Positions 1 through 17,595 of a stretch of DNA of 35,149 nt are shown here, in pieces. Under the pieces are notes generated by a model that was not told the DNA's origin, did no database searches, and worked only from the letters and a program-made list of their open reading frames with translations. The stretch comes from a virus. The DNA is taken from the IMG/VR virus record IMGVR_UViG_3300025309_000037, positions 1 to 35,149 of that record. One strand, written 5' to 3'. Within the stretch, counting starts at the first letter, position 1, and the number at the start of each line of letters is the position of its first letter. The position numbers and the translations under genes were made by a program.

Positions 1-1215
1 CTAAATAATAATTATGGATGGGGAGATAATTTAAATATCTTTTATAAAGGAAGATTAGTAACTAAACTAGAAAGTACACCTTATCTAAAAGGTGATTTAC
101 ATATTAGTGATAAAGCATTAAATTTAACTTCTCCAGACAGAAAAGATGTTATTAAGGATAGTAAATTTTATGATTTTAGAAATATAGTTAAGACTTATGC
201 TGAAAAACTATGTGCGGAAACAATGCTCGAAGGTGACGAAGATGAAATTAATGAATTTACAAGTGCAATTAGTTATTATGTAAACAAGAAAGAAATTAAA
301 AATATGATTAAATTCCTTACATTTAAAAGTAGTGATGAAAAGGACTTAGAATATTTAAGGGGCGTTGCTATAGCAAAAGGTAAAAATAAAGGAATTAATA
401 ATTTTAAAGATTATGAATTGCACTTACGTAAAGAATCAAATCAACAAAATGAATCTAATTTTGAAGAAGTAACTATTGATGCTAAAATTAAAACTCAACC
501 TCCAAAAGCAAAAGGAATTATAGTGCATCAAGGTAGCAGTTCTTATTCTGATGGATATGTAGAAAAACCAGAGATTAAGGATAATGAAACTACTGTAAAA
601 CAAGGAGAGATTATTCTAAACAATGATCAACCAGTATTCTATATTGGATTTTCAGAAGTTGAGAAATACGAATATAAACTCAATGTAGTAAAACACTATA
701 ATTTAAAAATAATTATTGCAAGAAATAAAATTGAGGAAGAAATTCTTAAAAACATGAAAGATTCTGATAATGTATTACATATTTCAGAACTAATTGAAGA
801 TGTAATAATAACTGGAATATTGTCAGATACATCATTGAATATTAGAGAACATAGAGCATTAATGCTATTTGATATGATTAGTAGGATGGTAGGACTATCT
901 TATAATGCTTTTGTAATAGGTAATTTAGCCGTTACAAAAAATATAAATGTAGAAAGTTTAGATATTAATACTCAAATTATTGAAGACAATGTATTTGTAA
1001 TTAGGAATATTGAAGCAAATAAAGTTTATGTAGATAGGAAAATTATAGATCAAACTAATTTAAGGGAAGATTTAGAAGTTAATTTGGATATTAGTGATTA
1101 TAAATTTATTTTGGGGAATCTTTATAACATTGTTGAAGAACTTAGACTTCTAGAGCATAAAAATAAAGATGACTATATGAATACAATATTGAGTATTTTG
1201 GGAAGTTCAATTTAA
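1..1215 (+). CDS. Probable GHKL/HSP90-like ATPase, C-terminal part (5' truncated)
   Basis: The frame is open from base 1 to the stop at 1213-1215, so the gene begins outside the window; the first internal ATG (223) is not its start. The visible N-terminal part reads GWGDNLNIFYKGRLV, then a strand-rich stretch ending LNLTSPDRKDVIKD. This resembles the transducer segment that follows the ATP-binding fold in HSP90/MutL-type GHKL ATPases, which large phages often carry (rIIA-like proteins). The ATP-binding motifs themselves would lie upstream and are not visible. The rest, about 330 residues, has a hydrophilic linker (about residues 145-200 of the visible part) and then an alpha/beta region I do not recognise. 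The GHKL assignment is inference from a short motif; the existence of the gene is certain. Confidence 0.4.
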   Translation, partial: LNNNYGWGDNLNIFYKGRLVTKLESTPYLKGDLHISDKALNLTSPDRKDVIKDSKFYDFRNIVKTYAEKLCAETMLEGDEDEINEFTSAISYYVNKKEIKNMIKFLTFKSSDEKDLEYLRGVAIAKGKNKGINNFKDYELHLRKESNQQNESNFEEVTIDAKIKTQPPKAKGIIVHQGSSSYSDGYVEKPEIKDNETTVKQGEIILNNDQPVFYIGFSEVEKYEYKLNVVKHYNLKIIIARNKIEEEILKNMKDSDNVLHISELIEDVIITGILSDTSLNIREHRALMLFDMISRMVGLSYNAFVIGNLAVTKNINVESLDINTQIIEDNVFVIRNIEANKVYVDRKIIDQTNLREDLEVNLDISDYKFILGNLYNIVEELRLLEHKNKDDYMNTILSILGSSI

Positions 1216-1251
1216 ACGATTAGATTTTAGAAGAAAGAAGGAGTAAAATAA

Positions 1252-1806
1252 ATGTTAATCAATAAAATTAAATCAGACGCTCTTGAAGCACGTAAGGTTC
1301 GTAAAACTGATACCGCTACATTATTAACAACTCTATATTCTGAAGCAAGCATGATAGGAAAGAACGCAGGAAATAGAGAATCTACAGACCAAGAAGTATT
1401 GCAAGCCATTGAGAAATTTATTAAAAATGCAAATGAAGTTAAGGAAATATTATTAAAAAATAATAAAGATGTTAGCAATGTGGAAAATGAGATTAAAGTT
1501 TTGAGTAAGTATTTGCCTCAAAAGATGAGTTATAATGAGTTAGAAAGTGTTGTTAGAGATATTATAGAAGCATTGAAAGATATAAATTCAGAAGTACAAA
1601 TGGGTAAAGTTATGTCTGTATTGAAGAACTCCTATGGTGGTACTTATGATGGGAAAATTGCTAGTGAAATTGTAAAGAAGGAAATTGTGCAAATTGTGAA
1701 CGCGATCCTAAAGGTTCGGATAACTATTGGTGTAAGACGCAATTGTTACAAGAATGCTTTGATTGGTTTGATAAATATTTGGAAGAATAGTAGTTCGAAA
1801 TTGTGA
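1252..1806 (+). CDS. GatB/YqeY-domain protein with an aberrant C-terminus
   Basis: Residues 1-146 match the YqeY family (related to the tail domain of GatB, the tRNA-dependent amidotransferase subunit): an N-terminal helix with charged repeats, then LSKYLPQKMSYNELE, QMGKVM and YDGKIASEIVKKE, the usual family ending. YqeY proteins are about 150 residues; this one is 184. The last 35 or so residues look like out-of-frame sequence, because the other frame over the same bases reads as a sensible Cys-rich peptide (see the pseudogene entry at 1668). The biochemical role of stand-alone YqeY proteins is not settled; tRNA or amidotransferase binding is presumed from the GatB homology. The ATG at 1252 follows AAGAAGGAG with normal spacing. 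The next gene starts 45 bases downstream. Confidence 0.75.
   Translation: MLINKIKSDALEARKVRKTDTATLLTTLYSEASMIGKNAGNRESTDQEVLQAIEKFIKNANEVKEILLKNNKDVSNVENEIKVLSKYLPQKMSYNELESVVRDIIEALKDINSEVQMGKVMSVLKNSYGGTYDGKIASEIVKKEIVQIVNAILKVRITIGVRRNCYKNALIGLINIWKNSSSKL
1668..1790 (+). pseudogene. Cys-rich reading-frame remnant overlapping the yqeY-like 3' end
   Basis: In the frame one base back from the YqeY frame, the bases after the TGA at 1665-1667 read NCKEGNCANCERDPKG, then SDNYWCKTQLLQECFDWF, and stop at TAG 1788-1790. Several Cys in CxxC-like spacing, Trp and a charged amphipathic end make this look like the end of a real zinc-binding protein rather than noise. It has no start codon or ribosome binding site of its own. 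Either one base is missing near 1670-1685, so that the YqeY domain is really fused to this tail, or this is the residue of a deleted neighbour. The coding character is judged by eye. Confidence 0.4.
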
Positions 1807-1851
1807 TTTCCTTGGATAAAAAATAAATAAAATAAAAGGAGAAATGATAAA

Positions 1852-2610
1852 ATGAATGATGTACAAATTTATGAAAATACTGAATTAGGTTTTAAAGTAA
1901 GAACAAAATTAAATGAGGACAAAAGTATTAGCATGAATGCCGAAGATACGGCTATTGGGTTTGGATGGTATGAAAAGAAAGGTGATAAAATATATCCAAG
2001 ATGGAGAACAATAAATGGATATATTAGTGATTTTGGGTTTTCGCAAGAAGTTGCGAAAGATGATTATATACAAGAAAGTCTATTTTATCTTCTGGGAATG
2101 AAAGCAAATAATGAATCTGCAATTGGTTATCAAAAATGGTTAGCTATTGATGTGATCCCTTCCATTCGTAAACATGGTGCTTTTATTGCAGATAGTGAAA
2201 ACGTAGATGAGAGTTTTATTTTAAATGAATTAAGATTTAGTAAAAAGAGAACCATAAAAACTTTTACAAATGCAAACATAGGTGATATTAAAAAGCTATA
2301 TGAGGAATTTAGAGAATATATAGATTCCGAATATAAATATAAAACAGACGAAAGAGTGGCACGTTATAAAAGTGTTGAGAAGGGACTAGATGGTTTACAT
2401 GATAGATTGATCGCAGAAGATACCAGTAATGTCGGTGATTGCTATAATGTTAGAAAACTTAAAGAAAAGGTAATTATTGATAGAACTACATTAGAGAAAA
2501 GAATTAGTGGTGGCGAAAAGGCAGGAATGACAAGAGAAATAAGTAGGTTAAATGATGAAATTGAGAACATAAATTCTGCAAGTTGCTATTGTGAATTAGA
2601 TAATGACTAA
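1852..2610 (+). CDS. BRO-N family phage antirepressor
   Basis: This 252-residue protein has the BRO-N/Ant fold in its first 110 or so residues: AEDTAIGFGW near residue 30, a WRTINGY segment, then FSQEVAKDDYIQESLFYLLGMKANNESA and the hallmark WLAIDVIPSIRKHGAFI. In this family the BRO-N domain binds DNA or counteracts a phage repressor. The remaining 140 residues are charged, probably helical, and not a C-terminal antirepressor domain I can name. Start ATG 1852 follows AAAAGGAGAAATGATAAA. It lies directly upstream of promoter P1 with its inverted repeat, so a regulatory link to P1 is possible, but that is inference from position only. Confidence 0.85.
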   Translation: MNDVQIYENTELGFKVRTKLNEDKSISMNAEDTAIGFGWYEKKGDKIYPRWRTINGYISDFGFSQEVAKDDYIQESLFYLLGMKANNESAIGYQKWLAIDVIPSIRKHGAFIADSENVDESFILNELRFSKKRTIKTFTNANIGDIKKLYEEFREYIDSEYKYKTDERVARYKSVEKGLDGLHDRLIAEDTSNVGDCYNVRKLKEKVIIDRTTLEKRISGGEKAGMTREISRLNDEIENINSASCYCELDND

Positions 2611-2615
2611 TATTT

Positions 2616-2664
2616 AAAGTAAGAAATAAAATTATTTGACATAATATCTCTTTTGTGTTATTAT
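2616..2664 (+). promoter_or_regulatory. Promoter P1 (17-nt upstream element, -35, extended -10)
   Basis: The upstream element AAAGTAAGAAATAAAAT lies at 2616-2632, TTGACA at 2636-2641, a 17-base spacer, then TATTAT at 2659-2664 preceded by TGT (extended -10). This is a strong sigma-A-type promoter. The start point should lie near 2671, leaving a leader of about 40 bases before the ligase ATG at 2712. The same 17-nt upstream element precedes P3 and P4. It reads into the ligase, macrodomain and PARP genes. Confidence 0.85.
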
Positions 2665-2686
2665 TAATGTAGTACAAAAGAGATAT
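2644..2686 (+). repeat. 13-bp inverted repeat flanking the P1 -10 box
   Basis: ATATCTCTTTTGT at 2644-2656 and its exact reverse complement ACAAAAGAGATAT at 2674-2686, separated by 17 bases that contain the -10 box and the expected start point. Arm centres are 30 bases apart, about three helical turns. The left arm is upstream of the start point, so the repeat cannot fold in the transcript; a two-site operator for a repressor or activator is the simplest reading. Confidence 0.8.
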
Positions 2687-2711
2687 AAATTTAAGAAAGA
2701 AGGAATTATAA

Positions 2712-4037
2712 ATGGAAAAAGTATTAGAAGTTATTAATCAAATCCAAGGTACAAGTGGTAGGAACGATAAGGAATCTATTATTAAGAAAAATAAAGATAA
2801 TGAATTACTTAAGGATATTTTCAAATTTGTGTACTCAACCGAAATAAAAACAGGTATCAAACGCAAGAAACTAGAAAAAGAAGTTAAGTCTAAACCCAAT
2901 ACAAAGATTAATGGTTTTTATGAATTAAAAGATTTTCTTGTTATTAATGGAACTGGTTCAGATCAAACTATTGCAAATATTCAACAATTTTTATCTGAAC
3001 AAACTGAAGAAATGCGAGAATTATACATACAAATTATTCTTCAAGATTTAAGAGGAGGTTTGAGTGAAAAAACTATCAATAGTGCATTAGGATATGAACT
3101 TATCTACATTCATAGATTAGAAAAAGGTGAAGTTGCCGAAGAAAGACATCTTAAATTGCTTAAAGGTAGGGAATTTGGTATTTACAAAAAGGAAGATGGA
3201 TATAGGGCTGAAATAGAAGTAGGCAATGATAAAGTAAAAGTCATGTCTTCTGGAGGAGAATTGTTTAAGGGTTTATTGGATATAGAAAATATTCTATTAA
3301 ATGCAGATTTACCTCATGGAGTTTTTGCTTGTGAATTATTGGCAGTAGATGATGATAACGAAATGACTAGAATGGAAAGATTCAACAAAACAGGTTCAAT
3401 ATTAAGAAGAGACGGAGAAAAATATGGGATTGAAGTTAGAGTATTTAATTTCATTCCAGACAATGGGTTTTATGAAGGAAAACATCCAATGATTTGCAAA
3501 GATAGAAAAATATTAGCAAAGCAATTGGTAGATAAAATAAACTCTCCTCTGATAAAAAATATTGATGCTTTTTATATTGGGAAAGATTTATCTCAAATTG
3601 ATTATTGGTTTGAACAAATGATGAATATAGAAGACGAGGGTATTATGGTTTTGCCAATGGATCAAAAATATGTTGGGAAAAAATCATATCAACAAATGTT
3701 AAAGGTAAAAACTGAAAAAGAAGCTGATTTACGTGTAATTGGTTTTGAAAAGGGTGAAAAAGGTAAAGAATTTGAAAATACATTAGGTAAAATGATTGTG
3801 GATTATAAAGGCAATCCTGCAAAAGTGATGTGTGGATACAAAGTAAAATATAATTCAGAAAAATATGACGATAGAATGGTCAGAGATTATATATGGACTC
3901 ATCAAGAAGAAATCTTAGGAAAGATTATTAAGGTTCGTTATACAGATGAGACTACAAATGATAAAGGTGGGGTTGATTTAAGATTATGTAGACTAATTGA
4001 ATATCGTGATGATAAGACAGAACCGAGTTATAATTAA
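2712..4037 (+). CDS. ATP-dependent DNA ligase
   Basis: It seals DNA nicks using ATP through a covalent lysyl-AMP intermediate. The nucleotidyltransferase motifs are in order: motif I KEDGYR at residues 160-165 (K160 the predicted adenylated lysine), motif III FACELLAVDD near 205, motif IV DEGIMVLP near 310, motif V LKVKTEKEADLRVIG near 328. A C-terminal OB-fold follows, with GKIIKVRYTD. The first 150 residues are a helical DNA-binding domain, as in T4/T7-group ligases with an N-terminal extension. The 441-residue length is normal for phage ligases. Start ATG 2712 follows AAGAAGGAATTATAA. First gene after P1, followed 15 bases later by the macrodomain gene. Confidence 0.92.
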   Translation: MEKVLEVINQIQGTSGRNDKESIIKKNKDNELLKDIFKFVYSTEIKTGIKRKKLEKEVKSKPNTKINGFYELKDFLVINGTGSDQTIANIQQFLSEQTEEMRELYIQIILQDLRGGLSEKTINSALGYELIYIHRLEKGEVAEERHLKLLKGREFGIYKKEDGYRAEIEVGNDKVKVMSSGGELFKGLLDIENILLNADLPHGVFACELLAVDDDNEMTRMERFNKTGSILRRDGEKYGIEVRVFNFIPDNGFYEGKHPMICKDRKILAKQLVDKINSPLIKNIDAFYIGKDLSQIDYWFEQMMNIEDEGIMVLPMDQKYVGKKSYQQMLKVKTEKEADLRVIGFEKGEKGKEFENTLGKMIVDYKGNPAKVMCGYKVKYNSEKYDDRMVRDYIWTHQEEILGKIIKVRYTDETTNDKGGVDLRLCRLIEYRDDKTEPSYN

Positions 4038-4052
4038 GAAAGGAATGATTAT

Positions 4053-4508
4053 ATGATTAAAATAATTGACGGAGATATATTAAAAGCAGAAGAGGATATC
4101 ATTTGTCATAGTTGTAATTGTCAAGGCGTAATGGGTGGAGGAATCGCAAAACAAATCAAAGAAAAGTATCGTGAAGTATATAGGCAATATAAAACACTAT
4201 GCGATAGAACAGAATCAAAAGAGTTATTAGGGTCTGTACAACTTCTTGGATGTGACGATGGCAAAATCATAGCAAATTTGTTTGGGCAAGAAAATTACGG
4301 AAGAAATGGACAATATACTGATTATGATGCATTAAGAGAAGCATTAACTTCCATTTATGAAAGGGCAATAAATCATAAAGAATCTGTTGCCATTCCTTAC
4401 AACATCGGATGCTCGCTAGGTGGAGGCAATTGGGATATAGTTTATAAGATAATTAAAGAAGTTTTTCACGACTATGATGCAACCTTATATAGATGGGAGG
4501 TGAAATAA
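4053..4508 (+). CDS. Macrodomain (ADP-ribose-binding/hydrolase) protein
   Basis: A single-domain macro protein of 151 residues, the usual size for a stand-alone domain. The binding-site landmarks are present: GDIL at 7-10, HSCNCQGVMGGGIAKQIK at 19-36 (ribose/phosphate loop, with N22 and the Gly run), ANLFGQENYG near 75-83, and IPYNIGCSLGGGNW at 114-127. The pattern is closest to the Poa1p/TARG1 branch, whose members bind ADP-ribose and remove ADP-ribosyl groups or dephosphorylate ADP-ribose-1''-phosphate. The final motif has Gly where TARG1-type enzymes often carry Asp, so the catalytic type is uncertain. The stop overlaps the PARP start by one base (TAATG), implying translational coupling. 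Confidence 0.9.
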   Translation: MIKIIDGDILKAEEDIICHSCNCQGVMGGGIAKQIKEKYREVYRQYKTLCDRTESKELLGSVQLLGCDDGKIIANLFGQENYGRNGQYTDYDALREALTSIYERAINHKESVAIPYNIGCSLGGGNWDIVYKIIKEVFHDYDATLYRWEVK

Positions 4509-5725
4509 TGAGTGAAGTAAATCCATTATATCTTGTCAAAGTAGAACCTGGAGCGAATAACAATAAATATTATCGTATGATTCCCAATGGTTCTGTATTT
4601 GACGTTCAATATGGTAGAATTGGAACATCTGGTTATCAAACAACCTCCTACCCAATGAGTAAATGGGAATCTACTTTGAAAAGTAAATTAAAGAAAGGAT
4701 ATGAAGATCAAAGTAGATTAGTTGCTGATACAATCGTTAAAGAAAAGAAGAACAAAGAATACTTAGATATTCAAAATAAAGTAATTGCATCAATTGTATC
4801 AAGACTTCAATCTATGGCACGACAAGCAATTGCAGATAACTATACAATTTCTTCAAATAAAGTTACTCAAGTAATGATTGATGAAGCACAATTAACTTTA
4901 AATAACTTAATTAGTTCTGATAATCTTGAACTGTTTAATAAAACGCTTGTGGAATTATTCAAGATCATTCCTAGAAAGATGAAAAAGGTTAAAGATAACC
5001 TAGCGACAAAAGTAGAAGATTTTGGTGAGATAATTCAAAAAGAACAAGATTTACTTGATGTAATGAGAGGCCAAGTAGTACAACAATCTGTAGTTAAAGA
5101 GGAAGAAGATGCTACTGAAAACGAGCCAATCAATAATCAAACAATATTAGATGTTATGGGTCTGCAATTTGAAGAAATTACAGAAGAAGAGAAGAAACTA
5201 ATAAAGAAAACACTTGGTTCAATTAGTGATAAATTCTATCAGGCATGGAAAGTTACTAGCATTAAGACACAAGAAAAATACGATAGTTATATCAAGGAAA
5301 ATAATATTAAAAACACCAAACTTCTTTGGCACGGATCTCGCAACGAGAACTGGTGGAGCATTATCAACACAGGATTAGTTCTAAGACCATCAGCAGTGGT
5401 TACAGGGAAGATGTTTGGATATGGGATATATTTTGCCCCTAAAGCACAAAAGAGCCTTGGATATACATCTCTTCACGGTTCATATTGGGCCGGAGGAAAT
5501 TCAAATTCAGCATTTATGAGTTTATATGATGTGGCATATGGTAAACCTTATAATGTTCATTCTTTTGATAATAAGTATCATAATTTTAACTATGAATCAC
5601 TGCAAAGAGAATGTAAAGGAGCAAATTGTTTACATGCCCACGAAGGAAGTATGTTAAGAAATGATGAGATTATTGTCTATAAGGAAGATCAAATTACAAT
5701 CAAGTATTTAGTAGAACTTAAATAA
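4508..5725 (+). CDS. WGR-domain poly(ADP-ribose) polymerase (PARP)
   Basis: A 405-residue PARP-like ADP-ribosyltransferase that should transfer ADP-ribose from NAD+. Residues 5-70 form a WGR domain (FDVQYGRIGTSGYQTTSYP; Tyr replaces the namesake Trp), the DNA-break-sensing and allosteric module of PARP1-3. Residues 115-200 are helical and include an IIPRKM segment like the PARP regulatory domain. Residues 270-405 are the catalytic domain: LWHGSR with H275, VTGKMFGYGIYFAPKAQKS with Y308 and S316, and LRNDEIIVY with E387. This completes the H-Y-E triad of true polymerising PARPs. There is no zinc finger or BRCT domain. I use ATG 4508, with GGAGGTGAAATA in front, rather than the in-frame ATG at 4493, which precedes that ribosome binding site. 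Confidence 0.93.
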   Translation: MSEVNPLYLVKVEPGANNNKYYRMIPNGSVFDVQYGRIGTSGYQTTSYPMSKWESTLKSKLKKGYEDQSRLVADTIVKEKKNKEYLDIQNKVIASIVSRLQSMARQAIADNYTISSNKVTQVMIDEAQLTLNNLISSDNLELFNKTLVELFKIIPRKMKKVKDNLATKVEDFGEIIQKEQDLLDVMRGQVVQQSVVKEEEDATENEPINNQTILDVMGLQFEEITEEEKKLIKKTLGSISDKFYQAWKVTSIKTQEKYDSYIKENNIKNTKLLWHGSRNENWWSIINTGLVLRPSAVVTGKMFGYGIYFAPKAQKSLGYTSLHGSYWAGGNSNSAFMSLYDVAYGKPYNVHSFDNKYHNFNYESLQRECKGANCLHAHEGSMLRNDEIIVYKEDQITIKYLVELK

Positions 5726-5758
5726 TTTAAAAATAAAATATAAAGGAGTTTTGATAAA

Positions 5759-6061
5759 ATGGGAAATCAAGATGCTAAAATTAAGGAAATTACATATCAT
5801 GGAACTAAACAATATTTTACGGAGGTTGACGCTAGAACAAAAGATATTATCAAAGATAGTTCTTTTAGAACTTCAGCGAAACATGAAAAGGTTATTCAAA
5901 ATAATAACGCTACAATTGTAATCCTCGAAGACGGATCAAAAGGAGTGTCAAAATGCTTACCTGTTGATACATATAATGAGACAAAGGGAATTAAAATTGC
6001 ATATATTAGAGCAAAAATAAAATCATTGCAAAAAGAACTTAAAACTTTAGTAAAATCATAA
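5759..6061 (+). CDS. Small conserved phage protein, unknown function
   Basis: 100 residues. The N-terminal half is charged; the second half has ATIVILEDGSKGVSKCLP followed by an amphipathic helix (RAKIKSLQKELKTL). I have the impression of a recurring small phage protein with a DGSKGVSKC-type core, but know no function for it. It follows the PARP gene by 33 bases with its own AAAGGAGTTTTGATAAA site and is the last gene before the hairpin at 6076, so it is probably co-transcribed with the ligase/macrodomain/PARP set. Nothing suggests an enzymatic domain. Confidence 0.75.
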   Translation: MGNQDAKIKEITYHGTKQYFTEVDARTKDIIKDSSFRTSAKHEKVIQNNNATIVILEDGSKGVSKCLPVDTYNETKGIKIAYIRAKIKSLQKELKTLVKS

Positions 6062-6075
6062 AATTAAGAAAGGCA

Positions 6076-6130
6076 AGAATCCTGAAATCGTTGCTATTAA
6101 AGGGTTTCAGGATTCTCCAAATAGCATAAA
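6076..6130 (+). repeat. Hairpin element, copy A (loop motif shared with 22.1 kb)
   Basis: A perfect 12-bp inverted repeat, AGAATCCTGAAA (6076-6087) and TTTCAGGATTCT (6105-6116), with a 17-base loop holding CGTTGCTA (6089-6096), 3 bases, and AAGGGTTT (6100-6107), followed by AAATAGCATAAA (6119-6130). No T-run follows, so it is not a standard intrinsic terminator. The loop and the trailing motif recur at 22128-22168 with a different stem. It fills most of the 107-base gap between two genes. Function unknown: RNA processing or stability element, or a protein-binding site. Confidence 0.7.
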
Positions 6131-6168
6131 ATATCGATTTCGAAGGCATTTAGAAAGGACTGATAAAA

Positions 6169-6615
6169 TTGGACAATATAGAAAAATTCAAACAAGAATA
6201 TGAATGTATATGGTTAAGAGAACAAAATAATACATCTTTAAGTCCAAATGGCTTGTGTTTATTACACATATATAAGGCAATACATAAAAACTGTGTATGG
6301 ATACATGAGCAAATGAGAGAAAATCCAAACGACAATCTTAATGTTCTAAGTCATATAATTAATGAAATTTGTCATGAATTAAAAATAAATAGTGAAAAAA
6401 TATTTACTATTTTACCTTCCGGCAGACTAAAACCTAGTCAATTTGAGAGATATATTGACGAAAAGAATATACCAAAAATTTATAAAGATGAATATAAAAT
6501 AGTCTGGAATAGGTATACTCAATTATCGGCAGAATATAGAAAAAGACAAGAGGAAAACGAAAAAGAAAGATGTAAAGATGGATATTATACATTTAATTAT
6601 AACTTCAAAGACTAG
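6169..6615 (+). CDS. Hypothetical protein, 148 aa
   Basis: Not recognised. Starts at TTG 6169, preceded by AGAAAGGACTGATAAAA; no in-frame ATG is better placed. The protein is rich in Asn, Lys and Tyr and probably mostly helical. It contains LPSGRLKPSQFERYIDEK near residue 85, which reads like a short helix-turn-helix-type segment, but this is too weak for a DNA-binding call. The C-terminus is a charged helix followed by an aromatic tail (DGYYTFNYNF). First gene after hairpin copy A, so possibly the start of a new expression unit. Confidence 0.75.
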   Translation: MDNIEKFKQEYECIWLREQNNTSLSPNGLCLLHIYKAIHKNCVWIHEQMRENPNDNLNVLSHIINEICHELKINSEKIFTILPSGRLKPSQFERYIDEKNIPKIYKDEYKIVWNRYTQLSAEYRKRQEENEKERCKDGYYTFNYNFKD

Positions 6616-6643
6616 TTTGATTTGGAGGATAGGAGTGATATAA

Positions 6644-6855
6644 ATGGATTTTGATAATATGGCAAGAGAAGAATTATTAAAAGTTTTAAAAGAAAGTTAT
6701 ATGAAATTAATTCGTCCAATACCACATAGTCCAACATTTAAAGTCGGAAATTATTATAAAGGAGAACAACAGGAGATGATGAGATAGAAATATATGGAGA
6801 TGAAATTACGTTATATTTAACATTTGATGAAACAGATAAATATTTCAGAGAATAA
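6644..6855 (+). pseudogene. Small gene with a -1 frame break
   Basis: ATG 6644, after TAGGAGTGATATAA, opens a 47-codon frame (MDFDNMAREELLKVLKESY... ending EQQEMMR) that stops at TAG 6785-6787. From 6772, the frame one base back continues without a stop as GDDEIEIYGDEITLYLTFDE to TAA 6853-6855, and that part has no start or ribosome binding site. The two halves together would give a normal protein of about 70 residues. One missing base around 6765-6775 explains it. Either a decayed gene or a sequencing error; no classical slippery heptamer is visible. Confidence 0.55.
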
Positions 6856-6901
6856 ATCAAATACCAATTTTATATACTCAGTAAGAAAGGATGATAAAAT
6901 A

Positions 6902-7189
6902 ATGGATGAAAGTAATAACGAACATTTTCCAGTAGTTACTGTAATATTTAAAGACAGAACAATGTTAAATTATTGTGTTGTTTTTGAAGATGAACCATCA
7001 AAAGGTATGGAGGGGTTAAAATATCAGGATGAAATCGAATTAAAGTTCAAGAAACTTCCTTGGTACTCAAGATTTGATGGTTGGGTTTACTTCCAAAGCA
7101 GATACATAAACGGTTGCTTTCACGTAGAAAATGTAGATGAGTATAAGATTTATTTTGTATCTAAAGAAGAATTTAAAGGAGAAAAATAA
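6902..7189 (+). CDS. Hypothetical protein, 95 aa
   Basis: Unknown function. The in-frame ATGs upstream at 6824 and 6827 have no ribosome binding site; ATG 6902 follows AGAAAGGATGATAAAATA and is preferred. The sequence alternates hydrophobic and charged residues in beta-strand fashion (VVTVIFKDRTMLNYCVVFEDE, then WYSRFDGWVYFQSRYINGCF), suggesting a small all-beta fold. It overlaps or abuts the following reading frame, whose probable ribosome binding site lies inside its last codons. Confidence 0.75.
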   Translation: MDESNNEHFPVVTVIFKDRTMLNYCVVFEDEPSKGMEGLKYQDEIELKFKKLPWYSRFDGWVYFQSRYINGCFHVENVDEYKIYFVSKEEFKGEK

Positions 7190-7193
7190 AACA

Positions 7194-7436
7194 ATCACAA
7201 AAACAGATATTTTACTTTATGGAGCGTTGCTTGAAAGTGACATGTATGCTGATGGATATGGTTCAACTGACGAGGATACAAAATTATTACAAAAGGCTTT
7301 AAAGAAAATATATGGTGTCACAGAAGAAACTTCGGAAGAAGATGTTTGGAAAGTGGAAAAGCAAATGAATGAAGATATGAAAAAGTTGGTTATAGATTTT
7401 AGGAGTAAGATGACAGAGTATTTAGGAAAGGAATGA
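7194..7436 (+). CDS. Hypothetical protein, about 80 aa, apparent ATC start
   Basis: Unknown function; acidic, helical, with YGALLESDMYADGYGS and a Lys/Glu-rich C-terminus. Start assignment is difficult. The frame is open from before ATG 7137, which lies deep inside the upstream gene with no ribosome binding site. The only site, AGGAG at 7177-7181, is followed in frame by ATC at 7194 with a 12-base gap and by no ATG, GTG or TTG nearby. Either ATC is used, translation comes from an upstream start by coupling, or the true start codon has mutated. The coding region itself is plausible by composition. Confidence 0.6.
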   Translation: MTKTDILLYGALLESDMYADGYGSTDEDTKLLQKALKKIYGVTEETSEEDVWKVEKQMNEDMKKLVIDFRSKMTEYLGKE

Positions 7437-7442
7437 GTTAAA

Positions 7443-7853
7443 TTGAAATTCAAAGAAAAAGATAGAGTGAGAGTTAAAAATATAAGAGACGAAGCTACAA
7501 TATGTGATATTGAACCAAGTTATTTAATTGGTAAAATAGGTACGATTATTTTTATTGACCATATTCCAGAAATCAATGGGGATATTGATTGTCCATATGA
7601 GATTAGATTCGATGATTATAAAGCGCAGGAATCAGGAAATGCTTTTTGGGAAGAAAGTGAATTAGAATTAATTAGTTCAGAAGAAATTCCTTTATATCCA
7701 TTTAATCTTCCAAATGATAGGAATATTTCAGATGCTTTTTATTACTTGAAATCCAAGGGAGTTACGCCTGAACTATATGAAAAGTTATGGGAGTTATGGA
7801 AGCAAATTAAAAGGATTTTAAGCTTAATTAAGAAAGGAATATTAAAAAAATGA
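7443..7853 (+). CDS. Hypothetical protein with N-terminal SH3-like barrel
   Basis: 136 residues from TTG 7443 after GGAAAGGAATGAGTTAAA. Residues 1-80 look like a small SH3/KOW-type barrel: FKEKDRVRVKNI at the start, GKIGTIIFID, then YEIRFDD and FWEESELEL, a layout common in small phage and bacterial proteins of unknown role. The C-terminal 45 residues are helical and Lys-rich (YEKLWELWKQIKRILSLIKK). The stop TGA overlaps the next ATG (ATGA), so the next gene is translationally coupled. Confidence 0.75.
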   Translation: MKFKEKDRVRVKNIRDEATICDIEPSYLIGKIGTIIFIDHIPEINGDIDCPYEIRFDDYKAQESGNAFWEESELELISSEEIPLYPFNLPNDRNISDAFYYLKSKGVTPELYEKLWELWKQIKRILSLIKKGILKK

Positions 7854-8011
7854 GAAGATATAGAACTAGTTCAACAACGTCTAGTGGTGTAGGCATAGGA
7901 TCTGTTATTGCTGTAATTTTATCTTGGACAATTAATCATTCAATATTATGGGCTATTTTGCATGGTATACTAAGTTGGTTTTACATAATTTATTGGGTAA
8001 TTAAATACTAA
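7850..8011 (+). CDS. Small membrane protein, 53 aa, two TM segments
   Basis: ATG 7850 overlaps the preceding stop by four bases and is preceded by AGAAAGGAATATTAAAAA. After a basic, Ser/Thr-rich N-terminus (MRRYRTSSTTSS), two hydrophobic stretches follow: GVGIGSVIAVILSWTI and ILWAILHGILSWFYIIYWVI, separated by NHS. This is a small two-span inner-membrane protein. Similar tiny Gly/Trp-rich membrane proteins recur in Firmicute phages and their hosts with no known function. Holin activity is possible for any such protein, but no lysis gene is nearby, so I do not assign it. Confidence 0.75.
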   Translation: MRRYRTSSTTSSGVGIGSVIAVILSWTINHSILWAILHGILSWFYIIYWVIKY

Positions 8012-8041
8012 GAATGAACTACTTTATTTGGAGGAAGAAAG

Positions 8042-8236
8042 ATGAAAGTAAGAATTATAAAAGACCTGTCGGCAGAAAATAATAGTACGTTTCCTATTAA
8101 GAAATTTATAGGTAAAGTATTTAATGCAGAACATCTAGCAGACAACAGTGTTGATGTAGACTTTGGTGAATATTTGGGTGAATATCTAGGAACATTACAC
8201 GTTTTTGAAGGTGAATATGAAATTGTAGAATCCTAG
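8042..8236 (+). CDS. Hypothetical protein, 64 aa
   Basis: Unknown. ATG 8042 after GGAGGAAAG. The alternating pattern (MKVRIIKDLS, GKVFNAEHL, VDVDFGEYLGEYLGTLHVFEGEYEIVE) suggests a small beta barrel, similar in general style to the SH3-like domain of the protein encoded at 7443. It contains a short internal GEYLGEYLG duplication. Acidic C-terminus. Confidence 0.75.
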   Translation: MKVRIIKDLSAENNSTFPIKKFIGKVFNAEHLADNSVDVDFGEYLGEYLGTLHVFEGEYEIVES

Positions 8237-8280
8237 CATAAACTTTAACTTTTAATTGTTTTAAGAAAGGAATTGATTTT

Positions 8281-8532
8281 ATGAAAAAATATATGACTTT
8301 TGGTTGGGTGCTTGAAGGTGGAGGATGGGTTGTCAGTGACACATTGGAAGAAGCAAAAGGTTTGTGGAGTTTTGGAAAAATAGTATTTGAGATTAATTCT
8401 GAAGATGCAGAAGAATTAATGGCATATGGAAAAGAAGTAAAAAGCAATAGACTCATATTGGAAAAACTTAAAGAGAAATATTCTATTGCCTATCAAGAAA
8501 ATGAACCACCAAATTATTTAGTAAGCAAATAA
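8281..8532 (+). CDS. Hypothetical protein, 83 aa
   Basis: Unknown. ATG 8281 after AGAAAGGAATTGATTTT. The N-terminus is Gly/Trp-rich (MTFGWVLEGGGWVVSDTLEEA); the rest is mixed alpha/beta with a helical DAEELMAYGKEVKS segment. No motif recognised. Confidence 0.75.
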   Translation: MKKYMTFGWVLEGGGWVVSDTLEEAKGLWSFGKIVFEINSEDAEELMAYGKEVKSNRLILEKLKEKYSIAYQENEPPNYLVSK

Positions 8533-8568
8533 TTTCCCAGAAAATTATGGTTCAATGGAGGTGATTTA

Positions 8569-8739
8569 ATGACAGTAAATGATTTGTATGAAGAACTTGG
8601 TAAACTAATGAAAAATAATCCTAGTACAGTTAATGATGAAATTTATTACTTCAGTTACGATTGGAAGGTTGATGCTATTAATAGTTTAAGTATTGAATGG
8701 GATTTAGATTGGGAAGGCAGATACATAATATTAAAATAG
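8569..8739 (+). CDS. Hypothetical protein, 56 aa
   Basis: A short gene supported mainly by its ribosome binding site, TGGAGGTGATTTA, immediately before ATG 8569, and by its fit between neighbours (36 bases after one stop, 47 before the next start). The product is acidic and aromatic (YYFSYDWKVDAINSL, WDLDWEGRYIIL), probably a small beta fold. Function unknown. Confidence 0.65.
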   Translation: MTVNDLYEELGKLMKNNPSTVNDEIYYFSYDWKVDAINSLSIEWDLDWEGRYIILK

Positions 8740-8786
8740 TGACTCACAAGGGACAATTCAATTCAATAAATAAAGGAGGATAAATT

Positions 8787-9113
8787 ATGACAATTTGTAG
8801 AGAATGTGAATTTTACTCAGAGGATGATTTAACAGGCCTATCTCCACAAGATAAATTAGATCATGTAAGTGGTCACTGTATGGATGCTGATAATCCAGAT
8901 TTTAATGAATGGGCAAGAACATTTGGTAGAGGTATTACTAGAGAAGATTCATTAACAAGTCCTAAATGGTGTAGTAAAAGAGATAATCCTGAAACAACAG
9001 AAGAATATTATACTAAAGATGAAATTAGTGAATTTGTTAAGGAAGAAATTAGAAATAGGAAATTGATTGAATTTATAAGATGTACTAGATCAAATGATAT
9101 AATTTGGTATTAA
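8787..9113 (+). CDS. Hypothetical zinc-binding protein, 108 aa
   Basis: ATG 8787 after AAAGGAGGATAAATT. Starts MTICRECEFYS; Cys/His positions CREC at 4-7, H26, H30, C31 and WC near 62 could form a zinc site. The C-terminal half is a charged helix (YTKDEISEFVKEEIRNRKL). One of a run of short Cys-rich proteins between 8.8 and 12.5 kb. Function unknown; metal binding is inferred from Cys spacing. Confidence 0.75.
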   Translation: MTICRECEFYSEDDLTGLSPQDKLDHVSGHCMDADNPDFNEWARTFGRGITREDSLTSPKWCSKRDNPETTEEYYTKDEISEFVKEEIRNRKLIEFIRCTRSNDIIWY

Positions 9114-9137
9114 TTAAATATTAAGGAGTTAAAATAA

Positions 9138-9314
9138 ATGGATTTAAAAGTTGTACCACAAGAACATTCAATAATGACATTGTATGGAGCAGATACCCAA
9201 GAAATACTTCGTTTTGAACCTAATGGAGATATATTTATTCATGGCAAATTGTCCACTAATGATAGGGAAATAACTGATGGATTTAGAGAATTTTTAGGAA
9301 AACAGGGATTTTAA
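9138..9314 (+). CDS. Small conserved phage protein, 58 aa
   Basis: ATG 9138 after AAGGAGTTAAAATAA. The product has a beta-hairpin-like core (ILRFEPNGDIFIHGKLSTNDREI) and a short C-terminal helix (DGFREFLGKQGF). The core pattern, a strand with FEPNGDI and a second strand ending near DGFREFL, recurs in small phage proteins as I remember them, with no known role. The Asn-Gly turn fits a two-stranded sheet. Confidence 0.65.
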   Translation: MDLKVVPQEHSIMTLYGADTQEILRFEPNGDIFIHGKLSTNDREITDGFREFLGKQGF

Positions 9315-13666: not shown

Positions 13667-13687
13667 GAAAGAAATGAGTTGATACAT

Positions 13688-15010
13688 ATGACGTATTCAG
13701 GTCACGCAGATTCAAAAATGATGTTCTATCCAACACAGGAATTTGAGACACATAGATTATTAGGACTTCTTGGTAGGATAGAAATAGATTGGTTAAAGAA
13801 AAACTATCTAAAAGAATATTACACAAAAGAAGGAATATATCAAGAATTAGCAATGAAAGCACTAGATAACAATGTCAGAATAGAAAACGTCTATTACGAT
13901 TATTGGTTGAACACAAATCAATATGATATGATAAAGAAGAATTGTGAATTTAGTTTAGGAAGTAATAATAATTTCCCTATTGTAATCAGCGATTTGTGGG
14001 CAGGAGAGGGAAAGTGGTTAGATTGCTTTTCATCTGTAATGGATCGAAGTCAAAATAGTAATAATTTTATTCAAATTGCTAATGAATTGGAACAAAACAG
14101 ATATAAAATTATCTCAGATAATCCTAATATTTATGATTCATATAATGAAGCATTTGAAACATTAAAGCAAATTCCCAAGCAATCAAGTTCATTATTTTTG
14201 TTCAACCCTCCATATGGTATGGTCAATAAAATTCGCTCAATTCGTTTTTACTTACAAATGACGATTGATCGCCAATTAATATACAACCCCTCAACATCAA
14301 AAGACTACAAAACAGGATATATCGTCTGTGTTATTCGCAAAGATGATTTTCTAGACTCCCTAGACATTCTATCCAAAAACTTTGACATCCTTAAAAACTC
14401 AATCTATAAAACTAATCCAGAAGAATACGCTAAATTCAAACAATACATTTTTATTGCTCGTCTCAAAAGACATCCATATGACTTATCTAATACAATGCAG
14501 GCAATGGATTTCACTAAACAATATAATGAAATAAAAGCAATTATAGAATCAGAGCCAGAATTCAACCTCAGACAATATAATACTTATCAATCAATTAATT
14601 ATCCCTACATCGACTATGACACAGCAAAAGAAAATAATAAATATATTGAAGCACCTACTACTCATATTAGTAAAAATGATTCAATATGGAAATGGGCAAA
14701 AGGAATTACAGAATTAAAAGATTTAGGTGGAGAAAAATTAGTTGTTCCTAAACCATTAAAATTAGGTGAAATCAGTAATCTTCTAGCATCTGGAATGATT
14801 AACGGTGAAATATCATTAGAAGATGGTACTGGTAGACATGTTGCTATTGGTGGAACGAAGAGTATTGAGAAGAAAGAAATAAATAAATATAAGGATGATA
14901 ATGGGGATAATTATACTGAGACAAAGATTATTAAAATGAGTCTTCCCTATTTAAACATTTTGTGCTCTGACAATGGTAAATTAATCATAAAGGAATTAGG
15001 AGGTGAATAA
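13688..15010 (+). CDS. Putative N6-adenine DNA methyltransferase (NPPY motif)
   Basis: 440 residues. SDLWAGEGKWLDCF at 101-114 is a SAM-binding motif I (acidic strand end plus Gly loop), and LFNPPYG with NPPY at 173-176 is the catalytic motif IV of amino-methyltransferases acting on adenine. Between them, ANELEQNRYKII resembles the acidic motif II region. The N-terminal FYPTQEFE matches the YPT-type opening seen in DUF6094-like methyltransferases of mobile elements. It should methylate adenine in DNA, target unknown. ATG 13688 is preferred to TTG 13679. The helicase starts 5 bases after its stop, so the two probably work together, for example in modification or anti-restriction; that role is inferred. 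Confidence 0.75.
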   Translation: MTYSGHADSKMMFYPTQEFETHRLLGLLGRIEIDWLKKNYLKEYYTKEGIYQELAMKALDNNVRIENVYYDYWLNTNQYDMIKKNCEFSLGSNNNFPIVISDLWAGEGKWLDCFSSVMDRSQNSNNFIQIANELEQNRYKIISDNPNIYDSYNEAFETLKQIPKQSSSLFLFNPPYGMVNKIRSIRFYLQMTIDRQLIYNPSTSKDYKTGYIVCVIRKDDFLDSLDILSKNFDILKNSIYKTNPEEYAKFKQYIFIARLKRHPYDLSNTMQAMDFTKQYNEIKAIIESEPEFNLRQYNTYQSINYPYIDYDTAKENNKYIEAPTTHISKNDSIWKWAKGITELKDLGGEKLVVPKPLKLGEISNLLASGMINGEISLEDGTGRHVAIGGTKSIEKKEINKYKDDNGDNYTETKIIKMSLPYLNILCSDNGKLIIKELGGE

Positions 15011-15015
15011 TTAAT

Positions 15016-17595
15016 TTGATTCCATATTTAAGAACTACAGATAAGAATACTATTAATTGCAATGCTGATTTAGTTATTCTTGATTCAGGAGATCCAATAT
15101 TAATCTCTCTATGTGATTTGCATATCAAGAATAGAAAAATATGCTCAGATTTAATCTCTCATTCTTATCATATTACTTTAAGAGATAGAGAAGATATTTT
15201 CTTTGAGCAAACATTATATGGTAGAGAAAATCATTATCGTTATAAATCTGACAAAATGGAAAATGATTTAACTCATACAATTATTTACAATACTAAAATT
15301 AATGATTATTGTATCAATTGGAATAATGAAGATAAGAATGAGATTATCACAAAGTATCTAAGAAATATTCATTATTTGCCTGTGACTGCCGAAATTGTTA
15401 AAATGATTTTAGATAAAGATGATGAAACAAATTCTAAATATAAAAGTAGTTATAGTAATTATGGTTGTGTTGGAGAATGTACTGTTTATACTAATAATCC
15501 AATGTATACTGATTTAAAAGTATATGAAATCAATGTTACTTGGTTTAAACAAAGTTTAAATGCTTTGACATTAGAGGGTTATGAAGAAGATTTTGATTGG
15601 AATGAAATAGATGATATCGAAGGATACATCTTCGCTTTTCTTAGTCAGATTAAGGAAAGATTGAAACAAAATGTTAGAGTTTTGTTTGATCCCAAGAATA
15701 TTAATCAGAAAATGTTTGAAGGAAAGATGAAACCATTTGATGGTCAAGTTCCAATTATTCAAGCAGGGTTAGAGGTTTTGAAAAGAAGCCGGTTTGTTTA
15801 TTTGGCTTGTACTCAGGGGTTTGGGAAGAGTCTCAGTACAGCAAAAATAAATCACTGTCATTTATATCAAAAGAAACAAAACTATGTTACTTTAATTATG
15901 GCTCCTGCAATTACATTATCTCAATGGGAAGAAGAGATTGAAAATAGCATAGGAGATAAAATTAATATTTTTACAATTAAGAAAACTTCTGAATTTATTA
16001 AAATTTATAATAAAACTAATTTGCAATTTGATAGACCAACTTATTTTATTGTTGGAAAAGAGACATTTAAACTTGATGCAAAACGTGTATCTGGAATTAA
16101 TATTAGAACTATGGAAATAAAGCATAAAAAAGAAGTACAGAGTGGTGGTTATTATAGTTATTCAACAATTAAAGAAATAAAAGAGAAAATAACTATAGCC
16201 TGTTGTCCTGATTGCGGTAGACCTTTACAAAATGAATTGAGAAAAAAAGAAGATGTATTCTTTACTGCTAAAGATTTTGAAGGCAATCCTAAGAAATCAA
16301 ATTACAAATGTTCTAATTGTGATGCAGTTTTATGGCAAAGTACATATGATAAAACTAAGAAAAGTAGTTTAATAAGATTTATTAAAACTAAAAATATTCA
16401 TTTTGATTCTGTCGCTATCGATGAAGCACATCAAAATCGTAATGGAGAATCGATTATCGGTAACTCTACAAGGACATTGTTCAATTATGCTAAGAAGATA
16501 TTACTACTTAGCGGTTCCAGTAATTCAGGATATAGTTCGAGTTTTCACAGTTTGTTATTAGGATTAATTCCAAATAAACTCAAAGCAAACGATGTTATGG
16601 AAATGGAAAAATTTATTAAAACTTATGGAACATTAATGGCAGTCTCTAAAAAGAAAGATGGAGAATATTATCGTTCAGGCCGAAGTGAAATTAAAGATAG
16701 TGAATTTAAAGAGATCGAGGGCATAAACCCAATTGCCTACAGTAAATATCTTATAGAGAACTATATATTTGCTACTCTTGACGATCTAGGAAAGGATTTG
16801 CCGGACTTAAATGAAGTCTATGTACCAATTAGCCAAACTCAAGGAATGGAACGCTTAGAGAGGGATTTATGGCATGAAATTAAGTCTGCTAATGCTTTCA
16901 ATGCTAAGATGTATGAGAGTTCGATTGTAGAACATTACATTAACAATCCTTTTAAATGGGATTCTATTCCTATTAATAGAGGAGAAGAAAGTTATAAAGA
17001 AGTTCAACCCAAATGTATTGCTGATTGTATTTTACCAAAAGAGCAGAAATTATTAGATATAATCAAACAAGAAGTTTCAGAAGGTAGAAAATGCTGTATA
17101 TATGTTGACTTCACTGGCGGTGGAGAATATATGCAAGGTGAAACCATTGCAAAAAGAATTGAAGTTTTGTTAACGAAAAACAACATTGAATGTTTTACAT
17201 TGAAGGCATCTGTGGCTACTTATGACAGAAAAGAATTATTAGATAAGAAAAAAGATGATTTTCAAGTATTGATTACGAATGCAAAATTAGTGGAAGTTGG
17301 ATTGAACCTCACATACTTAAGTACATTTTTAGTTTATATGCCCTCTTATCATTATGAAACCATAGTACAGAGCATAAGAAGAGGATATAGGGCGAATAGT
17401 ACATTAGAAAATAGAATTTATCATCTTTATTATGAAAACAGTTGTGAGAATGGAATTATTAAACGCTACCAAAGAAAAATGGCTGAAGCACAAGCAATTG
17501 AAGGTAAATTTGATGCTTGCTTAGAAGACGATGATACTATTCGGACTGCTAGTAAACTTGGCAAGAAGATTAACGAAGGAGTTGGTATAAAGTAA
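15016..17595 (+). CDS. SF2 (SNF2/DEAH-type) helicase with zinc insertion
   Basis: 859 residues. Helicase motif I TQGFGKS at 266-272 (the usual second Gly and Lys kept), motif Ia MAPAITLSQW near 295, motif II DEAH at 469-472, motif III LSGSS at 498-502, and motifs V-VI VEVGLNLTYLSTFLVY and QSIRRGYR (785-792). A CPDC (397-400) and CSNC (432-435) pair forms a zinc ribbon inserted in the first RecA domain. The first 240 residues are a separate, unrecognised domain. It probably translocates on duplex DNA using ATP. TTG 15016 is the start, after GGAGGTGAATAATTAAT. Genes of this type next to an NPPY methyltransferase occur on mobile elements; a joint DNA-modification or anti-restriction role is inference. 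Confidence 0.8.
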   Translation: MIPYLRTTDKNTINCNADLVILDSGDPILISLCDLHIKNRKICSDLISHSYHITLRDREDIFFEQTLYGRENHYRYKSDKMENDLTHTIIYNTKINDYCINWNNEDKNEIITKYLRNIHYLPVTAEIVKMILDKDDETNSKYKSSYSNYGCVGECTVYTNNPMYTDLKVYEINVTWFKQSLNALTLEGYEEDFDWNEIDDIEGYIFAFLSQIKERLKQNVRVLFDPKNINQKMFEGKMKPFDGQVPIIQAGLEVLKRSRFVYLACTQGFGKSLSTAKINHCHLYQKKQNYVTLIMAPAITLSQWEEEIENSIGDKINIFTIKKTSEFIKIYNKTNLQFDRPTYFIVGKETFKLDAKRVSGINIRTMEIKHKKEVQSGGYYSYSTIKEIKEKITIACCPDCGRPLQNELRKKEDVFFTAKDFEGNPKKSNYKCSNCDAVLWQSTYDKTKKSSLIRFIKTKNIHFDSVAIDEAHQNRNGESIIGNSTRTLFNYAKKILLLSGSSNSGYSSSFHSLLLGLIPNKLKANDVMEMEKFIKTYGTLMAVSKKKDGEYYRSGRSEIKDSEFKEIEGINPIAYSKYLIENYIFATLDDLGKDLPDLNEVYVPISQTQGMERLERDLWHEIKSANAFNAKMYESSIVEHYINNPFKWDSIPINRGEESYKEVQPKCIADCILPKEQKLLDIIKQEVSEGRKCCIYVDFTGGGEYMQGETIAKRIEVLLTKNNIECFTLKASVATYDRKELLDKKKDDFQVLITNAKLVEVGLNLTYLSTFLVYMPSYHYETIVQSIRRGYRANSTLENRIYHLYYENSCENGIIKRYQRKMAEAQAIEGKFDACLEDDDTIRTASKLGKKINEGVGIK

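Follow-up and report, generated by a model that had tools for sequence, protein, structure and literature searches.

The virus record analysed here (the window, 35,149 bases and probably a fragment) was found to carry adjoining genes for an ATP-dependent DNA ligase, a macrodomain protein and a PARP with a WGR domain. With moderate confidence, these are interpreted as a phage-encoded cassette for reversible ADP-ribosylation, with phage DNA breaks during replication as its most likely site of action. It is proposed more tentatively that a break-activated PARP, a dedicated and exchangeable eraser and an exchangeable ligase make up a self-contained prokaryotic unit for strand-break signalling and sealing, a viral counterpart of PARP3, TARG1 and ligase. 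The evidence consists of domain architecture, conserved residues, conserved adjacency and the exchange of genes within slots; that close relatives swap the eraser and the ligase for unrelated equivalents in place suggests that the three products work together.

All three genes lie on the plus strand behind one promoter, an arrangement that the original prediction had read from the letters and that stood up to analysis. The promoter (TTGACA-17 nt-TATTAT, 2636–2664, with TG ahead of the second hexamer) was the top and sole 11/12 match within 2500–6300, and no terminator-like sites were found in the same interval. Of 15 sister loci, 9 likewise had a match of at least 11/12 ahead of the ligase, and the region reads as a conserved, strong promoter. 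A perfect 13-nt inverted repeat over the promoter (2644–2686) is a possible operator or 5′ hairpin; the sister loci checked showed no such repeat ahead of their ligases, the promoter region was not found as an exact sequence in other viral contigs, and no known phages gave a near DNA match to the window. The ligase gene (2712–4037, 441 aa) is followed by those of the macrodomain (4053–4508, 151 aa) and the PARP (4508–5725, 405 aa), the last two being coupled, as had been noted, by TAATG, in which the stop TAA (4506–4508) overlaps the start ATG (4508–4510). The ATG at 4493 given for the PARP in the ORF list was rejected because the GGAGGTG ribosome site comes after it. The unit may extend to a small conserved gene (5759–6061, plus strand, 100 aa), which probably comes next in it and in locus L087 is found between PARP and ligase.

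The PARP was matched by the Pfam PARP (1.8e-24) and WGR (8.4e-8) models, and the family profile aligned with human PARP2 (1.1e-28) across the WGR, helical and catalytic regions. The catalytic triad described as intact in the original prediction (H275, Y308, E387) was unchanged across 54 aligned relatives, bacterial chromosomal PARPs among them. The N-terminal WGR domain (~7–69) was likewise confirmed as a domain, with R37 invariant and G36 present in 53 of the 54, although its motif is spelled YGR, as is usual in bacterial PARPs (PMC5966428). Structure modelling, which had been proposed as a check, returned a complete enzyme: the AlphaFold2 model (pLDDT 87.2) superimposed on residues 549–1006 of human PARP1 bound to a DNA double-strand break over 363 of 405 residues (Z 26.8, rmsd 3.9). 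Helices 91–197, which lie inside this alignment, correspond as a fold only to the autoinhibitory helical domain between WGR and ART (~229–405); Pfam does not detect this domain in most bacterial PARPs, the window PARP likewise (PMC5966428). An H-Y-E ART domain, a WGR domain and the helical fold, the characters of DNA-dependent PARPs (PARP1-3 clade), are all present, and WGR and helical domains were kept in all PARP models and alignments examined. On the model, the window PARP has the WGR-helical-ART architecture of PARP3, the one through which human PARP1-3 couple catalysis to the binding of breaks.

Viral contigs were scanned with the PARP, giving 70 loci, with further loci from later scans; removal of near-identical PARPs left 55 viral loci in which 1.5 kb or more of upstream sequence was available. 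A macrodomain gene occurred upstream within 3 kb of the PARP in 48 of these and lay within 60 bp of it, or overlapped it, in 40. It was the most regular neighbour of the PARP (61 of 71 loci, the next gene family reaching 31 of 71), and the wider gaps between the two (~0.8 kb) contain an extra gene, which in two of the three tested was of GIY-YIG/NUMOD homing-endonuclease type. Among 51 dereplicated genome loci used as a control, an upstream macrodomain was present in only five, all from Bacillota and perhaps prophages, and in none from Bacteroidota. Chromosomal WGR-PARPs (Herpetosiphon, C. difficile CD160, Cytophagales) share the domain architecture and YGR motif of the phage enzyme but differ in that the Bacteroidota loci examined had neither a macrodomain nor a ligase adjoining; those of Lachnospiraceae were also without an adjoining macrodomain. 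Given that genome loci mostly lack it, macrodomain adjacency is a trait of this phage group and not of WGR-PARPs generally. The conserved adjacency implied by the original prediction was therefore found for the macrodomain–PARP pair; for the ligase it recurs repeatedly without being universal. A microbial PARG profile gave no match in the cassette phage genomes, and the control for that family was likewise without a match.

The window macrodomain (Pfam Macro, 2.7e-9), correctly recognised from the beginning, is closest to BT1257, SCO6735, DarG and Poa1p, with which it shares the fold and the ALC1-like class (Z 19.6 to 5e3b); it differs from these in being partnered with a PARP, rather than with DarT or standing alone. 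Its Q79, invariant in 9 relatives, aligned with Gln85 of SCO6735 (by residue count on the chain, with the tag offset assumed), and its H19 with H23 of Poa1p. Mutation of Gln85 abolishes the activity of SCO6735, which strips ADP-ribose from thymidine in DNA (dT-ADPr) and from protein Glu/Asp, the substrates of TARG1 (PMC9411070). The window macrodomain thus has both characters of the SCO6735 type, the ALC1-like fold and the glutamine at the Gln85 position, and differs from human TARG1 in that equivalents of the Lys84/Asp125 dyad are both missing. The window-type group, throughout which Q79 is unchanged, numbers eight. Many relatives instead carry a TARG1-type macrodomain, with equivalents of Lys84 and Asp125 both present in 25 of the 55 dereplicated viral loci; the one tested against human TARG1 (L031) matched at 5e-25 and has both residues. 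As the two types are only ~30% identical, one seems to have been replaced in place by an equivalent. A third set comprises several clades without the Asp125 equivalent, some also without the GAGIA motif, and its members may bind ADP-ribose rather than erase it.

The ligase (Pfam DNA_ligase_A_M, 6e-8; phrog_114, 1.5e-65) carries the KxDG, EGxM and KxK motifs of ATP-dependent ligases as KEDG with the predicted K160, EGIM at 309 and LKVK at 330, and by these matches appears to be an ordinary nick-sealing phage ATP ligase of family phrog_114. It had been described as an end-joining enzyme, a description that found no support: no Ku above cut-off was found in 34 large relatives (whose records may be incomplete) and the window ligase scored far under the LigD cut-offs, leading to rejection of end joining with Ku or Ku-LigD. 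The suggestion of a strand-break signalling unit is partly supported, by the conserved pair of writer and putative eraser and the recurring ligases, and not in its end-joining part.

These 34 large records had been selected by PARP alone. A strong ATP ligase match was obtained in eight of them (112–218 kb), and in all eight a copy lay 346–1393 bp from the PARP; the chance of a given gene falling so near is ~1.5–3% per record, the records not being independent. The remaining 26 were without an ATP ligase, and 21 of these had an NAD-dependent ligase, as a rule well away from the PARP (median distance 32 kb) and adjacent to it in one. The idea that an NAD-consuming PARP selects for an NAD-independent ligase, raised by the difference between eight of eight and one of 21, was weakened by NAD ligases next to the PARP or its macrodomain: in L030 and L048 such a ligase occupies the slot ahead of macrodomain–PARP, and in L038 it is directly upstream of the PARP. 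As about two thirds of related phages have no ligase adjoining the PARP, the ligase is considered an optional part of the cassette.

The ligases that do adjoin the PARP fall into ten types (less than 55% identity), the type having changed 12 times on the PARP tree, and this slot changes more often than that of the macrodomain. Between the window and L001, the PARPs are 95% identical, the macrodomains 56% and the ligases 33%, and the following gene differs by 3%; in L005 and L009, PARPs of 85% identity are accompanied by ligases of 39%. The order PARP-gene-ligase is found in L087/L154, L185 and Cellulophaga phage phi4:1, L010 carries a tandem pair of ATP ligases, and the ligase of L065 contains a LAGLIDADG intein. 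Homing endonucleases and the intein in the region may have helped gene exchange. Without function, it is hard to account for a link remade with unrelated ligases, of both cofactor types and in varied gene orders.

If the cassette acts at phage DNA breaks, the WGR domain would bind nicks or ends with a 5′-phosphate, relieving the helical domain, and the ART domain would spend NAD+ to ADP-ribosylate the PARP itself, nearby phage proteins and/or 5′-phosphate DNA ends. The macrodomain would take ADP-ribose off acidic residues or off DNA; the ligase would seal the cleaned end or directly join the ADP-ribosylated one. Each of these steps is inferred, from the sensing of the break and the placing of the mark to its erasure and the passing on to the ligase. 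PARP3 mono-ADP-ribosylates phosphorylated DNA ends, a modification reversed by TARG1 (PMC5725667), and PARP3-modified gapped DNA can be joined by DNA ligases including that of T4 (PMC5843604). Human PARP3, as well as PARP1/2, has in common with the phage enzyme the WGR-HD-ART architecture, the H-Y-E triad and a ligase as functional neighbour, and many phage relatives have a TARG1-type hydrolase; the phage differs in having three genes in one unit, with no HPF1, Ku, APLF or XRCC proteins identified.

It is also conceivable, though unlikely, that the writer–eraser pair serves to control proteins of host or phage in a takeover like that of T4 Alt/Mod, with the ligase nearby as a fellow early gene of the replication region. 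Reviews place phage ARTs chiefly in host-protein modification (PMC9503650, PMC7824862), and the cassette is often close to DnaE, helicase and primase genes, where ligases may occur anyway; the lack of an ATP ligase in 26 of 34 large records also fits such a role. What this leaves unaccounted for is the retention of the DNA-binding WGR and helical domains in every model and alignment examined, the placing of ATP ligases within 1.4 kb of the PARP in eight of eight records when NAD ligases lie at a median of 32 kb, and the refilling of the ligase slot by unrelated ligases. A role as a toxin–antitoxin or superinfection exclusion system seems less probable again. Here a break-triggered PARP would deplete NAD+ or modify DNA, the macrodomain would be the antidote and an ATP ligase would keep ligation independent of NAD+. 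The phage macrodomain is upstream of the PARP and nearly always paired with it, both macrodomain types scored with the DarG profile, and most ligase-linked records have an ATP and not an NAD ligase adjoining. However, an NAD ligase adjoins in the three loci named above, the macrodomain does not adjoin the PARP in L011, L058 and L087, where one occurs elsewhere in the record, and none was detected in the records of L064 and L148. Like DarTG, the phage cassette places an ADP-ribose writer next to a macrodomain eraser; it differs from DarTG in its writer, a WGR-PARP without a PADLOC or NCBIfam match, in its attached ligase, and in its macrodomain, which matched the DarG profile (1e-23) over only positions 1–139 of 329 and has no DarG C-terminal DarT-binding domain. 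By these searches, the cassette is neither DarTG nor Ku-LigD end joining.

The same DarG match also fits a macrodomain that counters host defence by DarT or ADP-ribose signals and stands by the PARP only incidentally. At least 2794 of 50,697 phage records had a macrodomain match, and almost none of these had a PARP as well. Chance would not be expected to yield conserved immediate adjacency in 40 of the 55 dereplicated loci, or to fill the slot with another macrodomain type, and this explanation is regarded as improbable. Least probable of all, and very much so, is that ligases and macrodomains are exchanged as a side effect of recombination driven by homing endonucleases, gene order having no functional meaning. 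GIY-YIG/NUMOD genes do lie between macrodomain and PARP in several loci and, with the intein of the L065 ligase, could drive exchange without functional selection, but recombination at shared borders explains swaps of homologues and not an NAD ligase in the slot, and it leaves unexplained the remaking of the link in reversed order (PARP-x-ligase in L087, L185 and phi4:1). Against a module acting at breaks there also stand the absence of an adjoining ligase in about two thirds of the related phages, the macrodomain clades lacking the Asp125 equivalent and the chromosomal Bacteroidota and Lachnospiraceae WGR-PARPs lacking a macrodomain neighbour.

Phage PARPs are already known (PMC4245714; PMC9503650; PMC7824862), with PART families counted among the frequent viral ARTs (PMC9503650). 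The original contrast with known phage ADP-ribosyltransferases as being of R-S-E type was incomplete, as Aeromonas phage Aeh1 and Cellulophaga phage phi4:1 had already been reported to have H-Y-E PARPs (PMC4245714). Phage macrodomains are mostly taken in reviews to act on small ADP-ribose signals. No description of the conserved macrodomain–PARP pair or its ligase linkage was found in the open-access papers searched; as the search covered open-access papers only, the novelty of the three-slot cassette is provisional. The surveys of prokaryotic and phage PARPs consulted record presence only, and a conserved PARP–macrodomain operon with a recurring ligase makes their role directly testable. The cassette offers compact reconstituted systems for break-dependent ADP-ribosylation, and two catalytic eraser types occupying one slot provide a natural comparison. 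Were DNA ends to be its target, DNA ADP-ribosylation of the PARP3 type, hitherto seen mainly in vitro, would gain a biological setting.

Phages phi4:1 (L072) and L073 sit on long branches of the PARP tree, their position being unsure. No macrodomain was found among the phi4:1 flanking genes tested, and gp030, a candidate macrodomain between PARP and ligase, was rejected as it had no significant Pfam match. As in the window, the WGR-PARP of phi4:1 (gp031) lies by an ATP ligase (gp029), differing in the order PARP-gp030-ligase and in an identity of 33%.

The PARP gene of the window is followed on its 3' side by a small gene (5759-6061), whose counterpart in L001, the viral contig locus most closely related to the window, is 97% identical, with a dN of 0.017 and a dS of 0.36. 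Counterparts of this small gene occur 3' of PARP in approximately 10 relatives, and in locus L087 the counterpart is placed between the PARP and ligase genes.

L010 possesses a tandem pair of divergent ATP ligases (958-3471) 5' of its macrodomain and PARP genes, possibly representing an intermediate of ligase replacement, and the ligase gene of L065 (5084-7504) contains a LAGLIDADG intein. The macrodomains located 5' of PARP in L039, L040, L047 and L050 lack both the GAGIA motif and the Asp125 equivalent, and these proteins are perhaps readers rather than erasers of ADP-ribose. L058 carries two closely spaced PARP genes (6071-9209), one of which is divergent (~36% identity to the window PARP). 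The PARP reading frame is split in two in L013 (5935-7164) and L014 (7995-9224), contigs which look identical. In the jumbo phage L073 (5953-12323), PARP is followed ~3 kb on by genes resembling, by eye, HNH/RNA ligase and kinase genes.

A perfect 13-nt inverted repeat (window 2644-2686) overlaps the promoter of the cassette; the sister loci examined show none 5' of their ligase genes. Directly 5' of the cassette is an anti-repressor (Ant) gene (window 1852-2610) matching phrog_2011 and phrog_463. Elsewhere in the window (13679-17595), a methyltransferase-like gene (weak DUF6094) precedes a SNF2/ResIII helicase gene.
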